DNA of 64,000 nt from a virus, in the IMG/VR virus record IMGVR_UViG_3300044825_001015, positions 40,845 through 104,844 of that record; one strand, given 5' to 3'. Below are positions 40,610 through 59,757 of this stretch, piece after piece. The notes below the pieces were generated by a model that had not been told where the DNA came from, did no database searches, and saw only the letters and a list, made by a program, of their open reading frames with translations. Position 1 is the stretch's first letter. Every line of letters begins with the position of its first letter. A program made the position numbers and the translations under genes.

Positions 40610-40975
40610 ATGGAACTCTATGATGAATTAACAGAAGAAGAAAAAGCATATCATGATGCAATGGTTTCTATTGCAGAAAGATTTGGCCCGTTTGACCAGG
40701 GAACATCAAGTATTTGGGTTGGATATGAAGGCCCAGAAGACAATGAAGATGCTCAAATTGGTGTTAAGTGTGCTAATTGCTCCCTGCATATTGAGAGAGA
40801 AGACGGTCAATTAGGATGTGCTATCCTTTCTTATCTAGTTCATCCAGAAGCAAAGTGCCGCTTGGCAGCAATTCCAGATGGCTATGTAAATGCATCAATG
40901 GATGATGAAGATGATGATCCAAATGACGACGATGATATGATGGGCAAATTCTGGGGCGGATCTTTTCTTAAATGA
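40610..40975 (+). CDS. acidic small protein with two cysteine pairs (121 aa)
   Basis: Helical start (MELYDELTEEEKAYHDAMVS), a middle part with VKCANCSLHI and GQLGC, and an Asp-rich linker before a Trp/Gly tail (GKFWGGSFLK). A similar FWGG/FWDG-type tail is seen in the small protein at 35551. It probably starts from a leaderless transcript. The function is unknown. Confidence 0.55.
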   Translation: MELYDELTEEEKAYHDAMVSIAERFGPFDQGTSSIWVGYEGPEDNEDAQIGVKCANCSLHIEREDGQLGCAILSYLVHPEAKCRLAAIPDGYVNASMDDEDDDPNDDDDMMGKFWGGSFLK

Positions 40976-56604: not shown

Positions 56605-56648
56605 GCAGGTTTTCTGTGATTTCCGTGATTTTTTCGTAACCGTCGTAA

Positions 56649-56697
56649 TTGACATTAGGTAGATTCGGTGCTGCCACCGATTTGCGGATTTGTCAAG
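56649..56697 (-). repeat. palindromic regulatory element E2
   Basis: (A)TTGACA, 10 bp, TCGGTG-ctgc-CACCGA, 10 bp, TGTCAAG. The distal arm directly touches the 3' end of tRNA-Trp. Next comes CGTCGTAA and the A/T-rich TTCCGTGATTTTTT (rightward strand) towards the promoter at 56576. Confidence 0.8.
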
Positions 56698-56765
56698 CCC
56701 CACCCCAGAGAATCGAACTCTGCCCGACAGGTTTTGGAGGCCCGTCTGCGCCCAGCGCGGGTGGA
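56698..56765 (-). tRNA. tRNA-Trp-like gene (anticodon CCA) with shortened D arm
   Basis: Acceptor TCCACCC/GGGTGGG, discriminator G; anticodon loop CTCCAAA (CCA) on a stem with one C-A mismatch; variable TCGGG; T arm CAGAG-TTCGATT-CTCTG. The segment between acceptor and anticodon stem is only 14 nt (GCGC-TGG-GCGC-AGA), so the D loop is three bases and lacks GG. Total 68 nt. Either a degenerate or an unusually small tRNA. Confidence 0.6.
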
Positions 56766-56768
56766 TCG

Positions 56769-56816
56769 GAGCAGTTTATCCATTGTCCAATCTAGGATTC
56801 CCTCATGCTCAGGAGG
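56769..56816 (-). ncRNA. pseudoknot RNA motif, copy B (with inserted hairpin)
   Basis: Leftward strand: CCTC-CT-GAGCA-T-GAGG, then an insertion able to form ATCC..GGAT/ATTG..CAAT hairpin, then AAAC-TGCTC. GAGCA in the loop pairs with TGCTC. It ends 3 nt before the tRNA-Trp-like gene. Confidence 0.5.
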
Positions 56817-56843
56817 TTTTCGGCCCCATGCCTGCCGATGGCA

Positions 56844-56870
56844 GGGCAGTTTTACATCATGCCCAGGATG
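56844..56870 (-). ncRNA. pseudoknot RNA motif, copy A
   Basis: Leftward strand: CATC-CT-GGGCA-T-GATG-TAAAAC-TGCCC. Stem 1 CATC/GATG and stem 2 GGGCA/TGCCC form an H-type pseudoknot with an A-rich third loop. It begins 5 nt after the stop of the DUF932 gene. Confidence 0.65.
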
Positions 56871-56875
56871 TTTGA

Positions 56876-57874
56876 TTACGCGAAGGCGATTTCCTTGACC
56901 GCCTTCAGGATGCGACCCTTCTCCGCATTGGTGACAGGATCGAAACCGCTAGCGGCTGCTGCAACATTCTCAGCACCCCGCTCACCACGGCCCTTGCGGA
57001 ACCAGTCCAGACGCTCCGTGAGAGCATTGAACGCACCCCACGCGGTGCCTGCGATCATGTTAGTGGTGTCGGAAGAGTAAATCTCCTCCAGCAGATCGAC
57101 CTTAGTCTCCCACTTCTTGACAGCACCCTTGGCATCCTTGTCGGGACGCGGGTAGACAGCCTCAACAATGGCATCAAACTTAGCCTTGGTAATCTCCTTG
57201 GCAATAAGAGCCTGAGCCTCCTTATCGAAGGTGTCAAGGTACTGATTGGCGAGAGAAAGAGCCTCGCGTGCAGCCTGAACCTTACCACCCACGGTCTGCG
57301 TGTGGCGAATCTTGAAGGACTGCTTCACACCCTGAAGAGCCATGTTCAGAGTGTTCTGGCACACCACGCGAACGGGAGTGATGGAAGCCTGCACAGCAGT
57401 AGAACCATCATGCGAGGTGTGGACGAGAAGGTAGGACTTCACAACATCCGACACACCATTGGGGTCAAGGACAGTCTCACGCTCCAGCGCAAGCGAACCG
57501 AACACGACACGACCCTGGCGAATAGAGCCAGCAGTCTCCCAACGACCACCGTCAAGGAGGGCGTCACCAAAGTTGAAAAGATCCTCGTTCTGAAGAACGT
57601 GGTAGCGCTCACCAACGGTAGCAAGAACGTCAGTACCCTGGTCGAATGGGTTGTCACGAAGGACCATGTAGGAAGGCGTGATCACATTGTACGCCTTGGG
57701 GTAAGGAACGGCCTCCAGGCGAACGTTCCAGTTGGACAGGTAAGCCGCATCCAGCATCTCCTGGGTGGACTTCTCCTCAAAGAACACGGTCCCAAGACCA
57801 TGCCAAGCGGGTTCGCGGAAAGAAGCAAAAGACTGCTTCTCGCCATCCCGACTAACCTCTACTGCGTGTGGCAT
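56876..57874 (-). CDS. DUF932 phage/plasmid-type protein (332 aa)
   Basis: The ATG at 57874 (MPHAVEVSRDGEKQSFASF) is preferred: AAGGAG stands 6 nt ahead of it, whereas it touches the ATG at 57880. Family landmarks are REPAWHGLGTVF, YMVLRDNPFDQG, VGERYHVLQNEDLF, LLVHTSHDGSTAVQASIT and RVVCQNTLNMAL, characteristic of the DUF932/TIGR03299 proteins found on phages and plasmids. The biochemical role of the family is unknown; it has been connected with mobile elements. It is the most GC-rich, strongly translated-looking gene of the arm. Confidence 0.82.
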   Translation of the reverse strand: MPHAVEVSRDGEKQSFASFREPAWHGLGTVFFEEKSTQEMLDAAYLSNWNVRLEAVPYPKAYNVITPSYMVLRDNPFDQGTDVLATVGERYHVLQNEDLFNFGDALLDGGRWETAGSIRQGRVVFGSLALERETVLDPNGVSDVVKSYLLVHTSHDGSTAVQASITPVRVVCQNTLNMALQGVKQSFKIRHTQTVGGKVQAAREALSLANQYLDTFDKEAQALIAKEITKAKFDAIVEAVYPRPDKDAKGAVKKWETKVDLLEEIYSSDTTNMIAGTAWGAFNALTERLDWFRKGRGERGAENVAAAASGFDPVTNAEKGRILKAVKEIAFA

Positions 57875-57908
57875 ATTCATCTCCTTAGTTGATCGAACTT
57901 ATGGAACT

Positions 57909-57937
57909 ACTATACACCTGGGGACTGACACTCGCAA
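57909..57937 (-). promoter_or_regulatory. promoter of the DUF932 gene
   Basis: Leftward TTGCGA (57937-57932), 17-bp spacer beginning GTGTCAGTCCCC, TATAGT (57914-57909), then a 34-nt leader with AAGGAG. TGTCNGNCC promoter family. Confidence 0.75.
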
Positions 57938-57980
57938 GACTTTTTCTAAAAAATCCGTGAAAAATATTCTCTCGTCGTAA

Positions 57981-58013
57981 TTGACTTTACTAGGATTTCG
58001 GGGCAGGCACCGA
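57981..58013 (-). repeat. palindromic regulatory element E3 (one arm)
   Basis: TTGACT, 11 bp, TCGGGG-cagg-CACCGA (rightward strand). The distal TGTCAAG arm is absent; pseudoknot copy C starts 7 bp further on. CGTCGTAA and an A/T-rich tract lead to the DUF932 promoter. Confidence 0.65.
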
Positions 58014-58019
58014 AAATAT

Positions 58020-58046
58020 GAGCAGTTTTTCGTCATGCTCAGGACG
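58020..58046 (-). ncRNA. pseudoknot RNA motif, copy C
   Basis: Leftward strand: CGTC-CT-GAGCA-T-GACG-AAAAAC-TGCTC. Both helices are preserved by paired changes relative to copies A and D (GAGCA/TGCTC instead of GGGCA/TGCCC). It lies downstream of tRNA-Glu. The stretch 58047-58147 between them shows no gene. Confidence 0.65.
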
Positions 58047-58147
58047 CCATTAATGGTTGCAATGCTGGGGAATATAGGCGCTATTGGAAGTCCATGAGTC
58101 CCTAGGTTGACTTTCTCTTCCCTCACCCTATGTTGCCATACTCTGCG

Positions 58148-58220
58148 TACCCCCAACGGGATTCGAACCCGTGCTACCGCCTTGAAAGGGCGGCGTCCTT
58201 GGCCTCTAGACGATGGGGGC
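58148..58220 (-). tRNA. tRNA-Glu (anticodon TTC)
   Basis: Acceptor GCCCCCA/TGGGGGT; D arm TCGTCTAGAGGCCAAGGAC; anticodon stem GCCGC.. with loop CTTTCAA (TTC); T arm CACGGG-TTCGAAT-CCCGT; discriminator A. It reads GAA/GAG. 8 nt behind the gene ending at 58229. Confidence 0.92.
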
Positions 58221-58228
58221 TATCTGGT

Positions 58229-58654
58229 CTAACTCTCAGACCAGTCAATCTCCATGCGATCCTCTGAGAAGTCTGCCTCTACATCAGCAGAGTAGTAGTG
58301 CGACTCAAGGCTAGCACTCAGATCATTCTCAAGATTATCCATGTCGTAGTTCAGAGGAACACTAACGGTCCCGCTGAATGTGACGGTCACAGTAACATCG
58401 TAGTCCTTGCTGATGCTAAGACCAAAGATATCGACAAGGCTCTGAGAAATCTCCTCGTCAATGTAGTCATACTGCTCCTTGACGTACTGCTCAAGGTTGT
58501 CGATCATCATCTGACGATCATGTGCCCTGGCCTGCCAGAAATCACGATCAGCAGTCATACTAGCAAGGGCGTTGTTCAGTTGATCAATCTTAGTCTCCAA
58601 CTCCTGCATGGTGGGCGGGAATGGATGAATGTCAGTCATGCTAGGGTCAATCAT
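58229..58654 (-). CDS. coiled-coil protein (141 aa)
   Basis: GGAGGTGTAAC before ATG. Pro-rich start (MTDIHPFPPTMQELETKIDQ), a coiled coil (residues ~15-70), and a beta-rich C-terminal part (YDVTVTVTFSGTVSVPLNYD) with an acidic end. No family was recognised. It shares an operon with the gene at 58656. Confidence 0.6.
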   Translation of the reverse strand: MIDPSMTDIHPFPPTMQELETKIDQLNNALASMTADRDFWQARAHDRQMMIDNLEQYVKEQYDYIDEEISQSLVDIFGLSISKDYDVTVTVTFSGTVSVPLNYDMDNLENDLSASLESHYYSADVEADFSEDRMEIDWSES

Positions 58655-58655
58655 G

Positions 58656-59045
58656 TTACACCTCCATCAATGTCTTAGCGTACTTATTGATGAACTCGTT
58701 CAGGGAGAACGTGACAATGATATCAGTCAGCACTCCTGACTTCCAATCATAGTCATACAGAGTTACGGTCTTAAATGCAAAGTCAAAGACAGGAACCTTA
58801 TGCTCGTTGTCTGCAAGGTAGTTCACAGTAACACCCCAGCCAAGATCACCCTGCCATGCATCACCAACCAACTGCGAGATGATAATACGATTTGCATAAG
58901 CCTGATCGTCAATGCGTCCAGCATCCTGCACATGGTCAAGAGCATTAGCAAACCTAGCAAGCATACCCTCGCCAGCCCAATGTCCGTAGATGAAGATGGT
59001 GTTGCCATCGACCTGTCGAAGTCCGAAATTAGCGCGGTCGCCCAT
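58656..59045 (-). CDS. conserved MGDRANF-type protein (129 aa)
   Basis: The ATG at 59045 follows GAAAGGCACTACC; the longer frame would run through tRNA-Leu. MGDRANFGLRQVDGNTIFIY, GHWAGEGMLARFANALDHV and ANRIIISQLVGD resemble a small domain that recurs in phages and in some bacteria. No function is established to my knowledge. Transcribed from the promoter at 59075-59104. Confidence 0.65.
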   Translation of the reverse strand: MGDRANFGLRQVDGNTIFIYGHWAGEGMLARFANALDHVQDAGRIDDQAYANRIIISQLVGDAWQGDLGWGVTVNYLADNEHKVPVFDFAFKTVTLYDYDWKSGVLTDIIVTFSLNEFINKYAKTLMEV

Positions 59046-59074
59046 GGTAGTGCCTTTCTGTAGTAGGTAGGGAA

Positions 59075-59104
59075 ACTCTATCATGTAGGTCTGACAGTTG
59101 TCAA
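59075..59104 (-). promoter_or_regulatory. promoter of the 59045-58229 operon and tRNA-Glu
   Basis: Leftward TTGACA (59104-59099), 18-bp spacer ACTGTCAGACC..., TAGAGT (59080-59075), then a 29-nt leader. The -35 begins 1 nt after the tRNA-Leu 3' end. TGTCNGNCC family. Confidence 0.75.
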
Positions 59105-59105
59105 G

Positions 59106-59188
59106 TGCCCCAAGCGGGAGTCGAACCCGCACTCCGTTATGGAACTTGATTTTGAGTCAAGCGTGTCTGCCAATTCCACCATCGGGGC
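59106..59188 (-). tRNA. tRNA-Leu (anticodon CAA)
   Basis: Acceptor GCCCCGA/TTGGGGC; D arm GGTGGAATTGGCAGAC; anticodon stem CTTGA/TCAAG around CTCAAAA (CAA); long variable arm; T arm GCGGG-TTCGACT-CCCGC; discriminator A. It reads TTG. The pseudoknot copy D ends 4 nt upstream. Confidence 0.93.
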
Positions 59189-59192
59189 GTGT

Positions 59193-59222
59193 GGGCAGTT
59201 TTAGCGAACATGCCCAGGTTCG
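59193..59222 (-). ncRNA. pseudoknot RNA motif, copy D
   Basis: Leftward strand: CGAAC-CT-GGGCA-T-GTTCG-CTAAAAC-TGCCC. Stem 1 has 5 bp here. Located between the stop of the 53-aa gene (59233) and tRNA-Leu. Confidence 0.65.
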
Positions 59223-59232
59223 TCCCAACTAA

Positions 59233-59394
59233 TCAGCGACCAGCGGGGATGCCATGCTTCAGAGTCTCCAACGCGGGGGTGGAGTCAATGAACTTGCCAT
59301 TCTGACGAGTGACAATACGAGTCTGGACACCATAACGGGTGTTCCAAGTCTCAAGGTAGGTGAACTTAGGGGTCTTGCTCTTCTTGCTTGCCAT
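59233..59394 (-). CDS. small basic protein (53 aa)
   Basis: GGAGAAAAC before the ATG at 59394; the upstream in-frame ATG at 59430 overlaps the neighbour. MASKKSKTPKFTYLETWNTR, then a strand-rich part. Basic N-terminus. Unknown. Confidence 0.55.
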   Translation of the reverse strand: MASKKSKTPKFTYLETWNTRYGVQTRIVTRQNGKFIDSTPALETLKHGIPAGR

Positions 59395-59663: not shown

Positions 59664-59707
59664 GAAAAAATTTCTATGATTTCTGTGATTTTTCTTAAAA
59701 CTCGTAA

Positions 59708-59757
59708 TTGACATATGTGAGAATCGGTGCTGGCACCGCCCTGACAGATTTGTCAAG
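59708..59757 (-). repeat. palindromic regulatory element E4
   Basis: TTGACA, 10 bp, TCGGTG-ctgg-CACCGC, 11 bp, TGTCAAG. Followed leftward by ATTACGAG and AAAAATCACAGAAATC before the promoter at 59635. Confidence 0.78.

Follow-up and report, generated by a model that had tools for sequence, protein, structure and literature searches.

The locus and its four pseudoknot copies

In the window analysed here, 64,000 nt of viral DNA from IMG/VR record IMGVR_UViG_3300044825_001015 (positions 40,845 to 104,844), four copies of a compact RNA element lie among transfer RNA (tRNA) genes and a DUF932 gene, all of them, like the features around them, on the minus strand. An earlier note, made from the letters of this DNA, had described the copies as a selected H-type pseudoknot (hereafter the knot), and its coordinates hold for all four. 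Written in the order stem 1, loop 1, stem 2, loop 2, stem 1′, loop 3 and stem 2′, the copy at 56844..56870 reads CATC-CT-GGGCA-T-GATG-TAAAAC-TGCCC; it starts 5 nt 3′ of the stop of the DUF932 gene (56876..57880), and its stem 1 could gain one extra A-T pair, at 56871. A second copy downstream of the same gene (56769..56816, CCTC-CT-GAGCA-T-GAGG-...AAAC-TGCTC) ends 3 nt 5′ of tRNA-Trp (56697..56765). Its loop 3 is 27 nt long and does contain the inserted hairpin that had been reported, a weak one (-2.6 kcal/mol), and no other convincing copy with a loop 3 of that length was found in 2.26 Mb scanned. The copy at 59193..59222 (CGAAC-CT-GGGCA-T-GTTCG-CTAAAAC-TGCCC) lies 10 nt past the stop of a small open reading frame (ORF; 59233..59394, MASKKSKTPKFTYLE...) and 4 nt 5′ of tRNA-Leu (59105..59188). 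The remaining copy (58020..58046, CGTC-CT-GAGCA-T-GACG-AAAAAC-TGCTC) is the one said to follow a tRNA gene; it lies about 100 nt past tRNA-Glu (58147..58220), between this tRNA and the putative promoter region of the DUF932 gene.

Four matches to the core CTGRGCATG..AACTGCYC exist in the whole 104,844-base record, all of them on the minus strand, and the reversed core pattern has none; CTGRGCATG by itself would be expected about once by chance. One detail of the earlier description needed correction: the constant part of loop 3, given there as AAAAC, is AAAC across the family.

A promoter-like cassette occurs three times on the minus strand of the window (56643-56653, 57975-57985 and 59702-59712) and consists of a CGGTGCC-type hairpin, GTCAATTACGA and a TATAGTA-like box, after which genes follow. 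With at most one mismatch allowed, GTCAATTACGA was observed five times against 0.87 expected.

A covarying fold shared by many phages

Beyond this virus, the consensus knot is about 27 nt long overall and consists of a stem 1 of 3–4 bp, a CU loop 1, a stem 2 of 5 bp with the 5′ strand RRRYA, a one-base loop 2 that is almost never G (the single case is Lactobacillus phage phiAQ113) and a loop 3 that ends in AAAC. The copies retrieved skew towards near-consensus forms owing to the search patterns, each of which left a different part of the fold free. A first scan, in which stem 1 was unconstrained except for its closing C-G pair, gave 135 unique viral copies among the matches listed; in these, stem-1 pairs 2 and 3 each formed in 135 of 135 copies and showed all four Watson–Crick types, pair 4 formed in 118 and pair 5 at chance. 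At the R/Y position of stem 2, where the pattern permitted a mismatch, none was seen in the same set (A-T in 122 copies, G-C in 13). When stem 2 was left free, pairing was complete in 152 of 159 copies and involved many pair combinations. Loop 3, when left free, ended in AAAC in 79 of 79, and with loops 1 and 2 free, 91 of 92 copies had CU as loop 1, and loop 2 was U, C or A. Counting pairs over 86 distinct sequences gave a covariation score of 0.472, compared with 0.112 for shuffled sequences and at most 0.111 when the pairing partners were slid. Together, the free-stem scans and the covariation score establish two interleaved covarying helices, the defining feature of an H-type pseudoknot, and strongly support the selected fold that had been proposed.

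A chance origin was ruled out. Controls with reversed patterns and reversed sequences gave zero or near zero matches, and the stem-1 sequence CATC/GATG alone was found in 79 contigs, compared with none for a broken stem 1 (CATC..CTAC). Conservation of stem 2 for pairing alone was likewise rejected: a fully paired variant with a pyrimidine in the 5′ strand (GTGCA/TGCAC) occurred in 0 contigs, which suggests a requirement for the purine strand itself. Because CU and AAAC are near-invariant and this strand of stem 2 is rich in purines, loops 1 and 3 may form major-groove and minor-groove base triples of the kind found in other compact pseudoknots.

The knot is abundant outside the virus in which it was noticed, contrary to the absence of further copies that the earlier note had named as a ground for refutation. 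An exact-pattern scan of IMG/VR (CCTGRGCATGN(4-12)AAACTGCYC) was used for the search, and at least 120 IMG/VR contigs carry the same H-type pseudoknot. Because CATC/GATG, with its 79 contigs, made up 6 of the approximately 135 copies of the first sample, a rough extrapolation puts the total of near-consensus copies at 1,500–2,000. The carriers are phages of Actinobacteria, Bacillota, Cyanobacteria, Alphaproteobacteria and Bacteroidota, one Microviridae genome and bacterial metagenome-assembled genomes (MAGs). Named examples include phages of Mycobacterium, Arthrobacter, Cellulosimicrobium, Paracoccus, Lentibacter, Synechococcus, Nostoc, Lactobacillus and gut Bacillota, and the crAss-like phages cr7_1 and cr124_1; cultured carriers are Arthrobacter phage Molivia, Mycobacterium phage Labelle and Paracoccus phage ParMal1. 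One carrier belongs to the Autographiviridae and encodes its own RNA polymerase. Knot-like variants occur in one Vibrio phage, one Pasteurella phage and the genome of one gammaproteobacterial symbiont. A consensus query against 5,426 E. coli genomes and 72,556 plasmids returned no match, and BLAST matches in Erwinia and Aeromonas proved not to be knots. No Rfam 15 family overlapped the knot at its gathering score, and the E-value mode gave sub-threshold overlaps only. Literature searches by letters and by phage pseudoknots returned no prior description, subscription journals and preprints lying outside their reach. The knot is thus a small, strongly conserved fold that is common to viruses of many kinds of bacteria.

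Several further observations were made among these loci. In Saprospira grandis (L182) the knot lies inside an apparent CRISPR spacer (flanking repeat ...GCAGGCGAAGCAGCATTGAAAC), and therefore a host appears to target a conserved phage element; a second locus (L232) looks similar. Two loci (L186 and L189) carry tandem or degenerate knots in series, for example GTCCTGGGTAAGAC...AAACTACC beside a full copy. The Rfam model RF04354 (Plastid-ycf2 5′UTR) matched the reverse complement of tRNA genes at L020:6408-6482 and L241:1539-1616 (minus strand), which suggests that the model itself is an antisense tRNA.

Placement at the 3′ ends of coding units

We derived the contexts of the copies from simple calls of ORFs and tRNAs. 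In 53 of 141 copies, an ORF stop preceded the closing C of stem 1 by 7–14 nt, compared with 2.4% of random positions, and in a second, largely separate set a stop lay 7–14 nt upstream in 80 of 230 copies (2.7% at random, p ~1e-64). The distances break off sharply below about 8 nt, so that some 5 nt separate stem 1 from the stop; those of 8–13 nt are all common and span all three frames, and the stop is mostly TAA. With this spacing in every frame and no extended ORF evident, a readthrough or frameshift signal was rejected. For 26 of the 53 copies next to a stop, no further start codon was detected in the following 150 nt, and therefore the knot goes with the upstream gene.

Of 230 copies, 22 had a tRNA no more than 20 nt downstream, where 0.27 would be expected, and one had a tRNA upstream; most copies are far from any tRNA. 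Knots were present at 34 of 126 ORF–tRNA junctions but at only 3 of 88 tRNA–tRNA junctions (p 2e-6, odds ratio ~10), a contrast on which an element of tRNA processing was rejected as the main role. The spacing from the stop, the mostly downstream position of the tRNA and the contrast between the two kinds of junction mark the knot as a feature of coding-unit 3′ ends and not of tRNA maturation. Among the roles that the earlier note had considered, protection of ends fits best, whereas direction of tRNA processing found no support, given the rarity at tRNA–tRNA junctions and the many copies distant from a tRNA.

Hsp20, DUF932 and SSB genes recur upstream of the knot, along with many unrelated genes; DUF932 accounts for 11 of 110 upstream ORFs, including the one in the window. 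The recurrence of SSB neighbours (for example, the Molivia SSB) and the G-poor sequence 3′ of the knot would suit an operator for a phage RNA-binding protein in the style of T4 gene 32, whose pseudoknot is bound by the single-stranded-DNA-binding protein gp32, which then coats the leader (PMC3014915). We nevertheless give an operator little chance, as Hsp20, DUF932 and many unrelated genes are equally frequent, most copies lie 3′ of a gene, tRNAs follow some of them, and the carriers are too diverse for a single phage protein.

The knot is also often found at the start of untranslated stretches, where a put-like antitermination RNA or a pause element could act on transcription. Such an action appears very improbable: no U-run was found 3′ of the knot, several copies lie at 3′ ends rather than one in a promoter-proximal position, and the knot is present in compact gene junctions and in a phage that uses a single-subunit RNA polymerase. 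Because that Autographiviridae phage carries the knot alongside its own polymerase, a role specific to the host polymerase is disfavoured.

Homologues of the window's DUF932 gene in the cultured Streptomyces phages Jay2Jay, Coruscant and Kenrey and in Rhodococcus phage Dorin lack it and have a strong plain hairpin 3–9 nt past the stop; in Kenrey and Dorin the next gene begins soon after, which places the hairpin inside a run of genes. This sample of four phages is suggestive of a plain hairpin replacing the knot after DUF932. The median GC content of 120 viral knot loci, among the matches listed, was 39%, compared with 49–58% for the hairpin loci, and the compact knot may be a route to a firm structure in an AT-rich genome.

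These hairpins, together with the letters after the knot, bear on whether the knot mimics the acceptor end of a tRNA, so that RNase P would cut loop 1 at CU|GRG or, after trimming, the CCA-adding enzyme would cap an ACC end. An artificial H-type pseudoknot is cut in loop 1 by E. coli RNase P RNA (Kosek et al., PMC12710915), best with U at position -1 and A at the discriminator and not at all without a 3′ RCC; its authors state that it is open whether pseudoknots are cut by RNase P in vivo (PMC12710915). The natural knot reads C-U|G-R-G...C-Y-C, then A (72%), C (49%) and C or U. The equivalents of U-1, G1-C72 and A73 are accordingly present, as a near-invariant loop-1 U, a G1-C72 pair in most copies and A73 in 72%. 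After the knot, ACC is found in 15% of viral copies against a background of 1.7%, an almost ninefold enrichment, and ACCA in 6.8% against 0.5%; G is almost excluded, and RNase P is nearly universal among bacteria. However, the full RCC, though enriched, is limited to about 15% of viral copies, an RNase P site in a knot 3–4 nt ahead of a tRNA would be superfluous, and the plain hairpins that take its place lack these letters. We therefore regard acceptor mimicry as unlikely.

Short genes in MAGs of several phyla form a separate bacterial setting. They encode peptides of about 20–25 amino acids (...[RK][FYW]M[LIV]...VAHCxxG[CH]...), often with the C terminus SWA*, and have the knot at or over the stop (L129, L141, L144-L146, L152-L154, L163, L168, L175, L183, L188, L196, L205, L210, L237 and others). 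The peptide family has no NCBIfam match, and the neighbours of these genes share no clear function.

A predicted role in stabilizing message ends, and known counterparts

We propose, with a rough probability of 45%, that the knot is a compact 3′-boundary structure that stabilizes the upstream mRNA, especially where RNase P removes a downstream tRNA. A ribosome standing at the stop codon would end just short of the knot, which would therefore remain folded during translation. The message would end or be cut shortly 3′ of it, by RNase P at a tRNA, by an endonuclease in the G-poor stretch or through termination, and the upstream mRNA would keep a knotted 3′ end with a short tail (3–13 nt after an RNase P cut at a tRNA), which would slow 3′-to-5′ exonucleases.

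Several findings weigh against this proposal. The letters of the loops and of stem 2 are conserved far beyond structural need, and plain hairpins are not rare in the Streptomyces and Rhodococcus phage loci, where they occur at approximately 3 of 8 other coding-sequence ends. Behind Hsp20 genes (L014, L020, L060, L097, L107, L119 and others), a TATAAT-like box directly past the stop is followed by one or two hairpins and then by the knot, which there looks like part of a 5′ leader. In the crAss-like phages cr7_1 and cr124_1 (L252 and L262), ARAGORN finds a permuted, two-piece transfer-messenger RNA (tmRNA), and the knot is located between the two pieces, a few nt 5′ of the coding one, which is not an ORF–tRNA junction. 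In the bacterial peptide genes the stop is sometimes inside the knot, and a terminator-like hairpin follows some copies.

The arrangement at the Hsp20 loci looks like a recurrent structured leader, and the genes that come after its knot vary (SNase, FmdB-like and kinase genes). At two other loci (knots at L251:1500-1526 and L257:1711-1737) a DUF2800 RNA follows the knot directly; RF02960 is matched in the first, and similar letters are present in the second.

Positions directly 5′ of tRNAs, tmRNA pieces and the DUF2800 RNA, and the leader-like ones behind Hsp20 genes, are those expected of a 5′-to-3′ exonuclease-resistant viral RNA, in which RNase J would halt at the knot and a downstream mRNA, tRNA, tmRNA or non-coding RNA would be spared. 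The lack of matches in the E. coli genomes agrees with this, as E. coli is without RNase J. We consider it quite improbable all the same. It fits poorly with a knot ahead of a new promoter region, as at 58020, and with tRNA–tRNA junctions that seldom carry one; a dependence on RNase J is further weakened by the knot-like copies from the Vibrio phage, the Pasteurella phage and the gammaproteobacterial symbiont, in whose hosts RNase J is not expected. Compared with stabilization of the upstream mRNA, a general block to RNA-degrading machines arriving from either side would cover more of the exceptions, namely the Hsp20, tmRNA, DUF2800 and peptide-gene copies.

It is possible, although doubtful, that one 27-nt protein-free knot serves as a general guard of viral RNA ends in unrelated bacterial viruses (tailed phages of several phyla, Microviridae and crAss-like phages), as a counterpart of the exonuclease-resistant RNAs and tRNA-like 3′ ends known from RNA viruses of eukaryotes and possibly also as a pseudoknot that RNase P cuts in nature. 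Near-absolute loop conservation, a spread over many phyla and the lack of an Rfam family point to a basic part of phage RNA biology that has been overlooked. The knot could be used to predict the ends of phage messages and as a compact, portable stabilizer for AT-rich genomes, and it makes testable both the existence of exonuclease-resistant folds in bacterial viruses and the action of RNase P on pseudoknots in vivo.

Among known systems, the biotin-aptamer pseudoknot pPK (PMC12710915) has a loop 1 that ends in C-N before the cut and a stem 2 with G-A-G / C-U-C, as the knot has, and its best variant has U9 and A33; it is artificial, differs in the rest of stem 2 and in loop 3, and needs the 3′ RCC that most natural copies lack. 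The T4/T2 gene 32 mRNA pseudoknot is likewise a compact H-type fold in a phage mRNA followed by an unstructured stretch, but it lies 5′ of one gene and binds the protein of that gene (PMC3014915), whereas the phage knots lie mostly 3′ of many gene families, on which ground an autoregulatory operator of this type in an SSB 5′ leader was rejected.

The nearest Rfam relative, at a sub-threshold score, is GP20-b (RF03003). In its 5′ half, a stem with a UAAAA loop corresponds to stem 2 and other letters could form a stem 1, and the knot of Lactobacillus phage phiAQ113 aligns with it at 26.2 bits. Its model has a second hairpin, and the alignment shown has no pseudoknot; other copies of the knot are unmatched, the 64,000-nt window contains no match, and the best score (26.2 bits, L245) is below the gathering threshold of 36.2, so that the knot is not a member of this family.

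The frameshift pseudoknots of luteoviruses have a 2-nt loop 1 starting with C, one extruded nucleotide between the stems and an A-rich loop 3. The knot shares these features and a recoding-like spacing but differs in that its distances from the stop fall in all frames. Finally, plant-virus RNAs can carry an upstream pseudoknot domain and a tRNA-like 3′ end with a stabilizing 3′ role. Their sequences and hosts are unrelated to those of the knot, and the phage has a real tRNA, but the order of ORF stop, pseudoknot and tRNA is the same.

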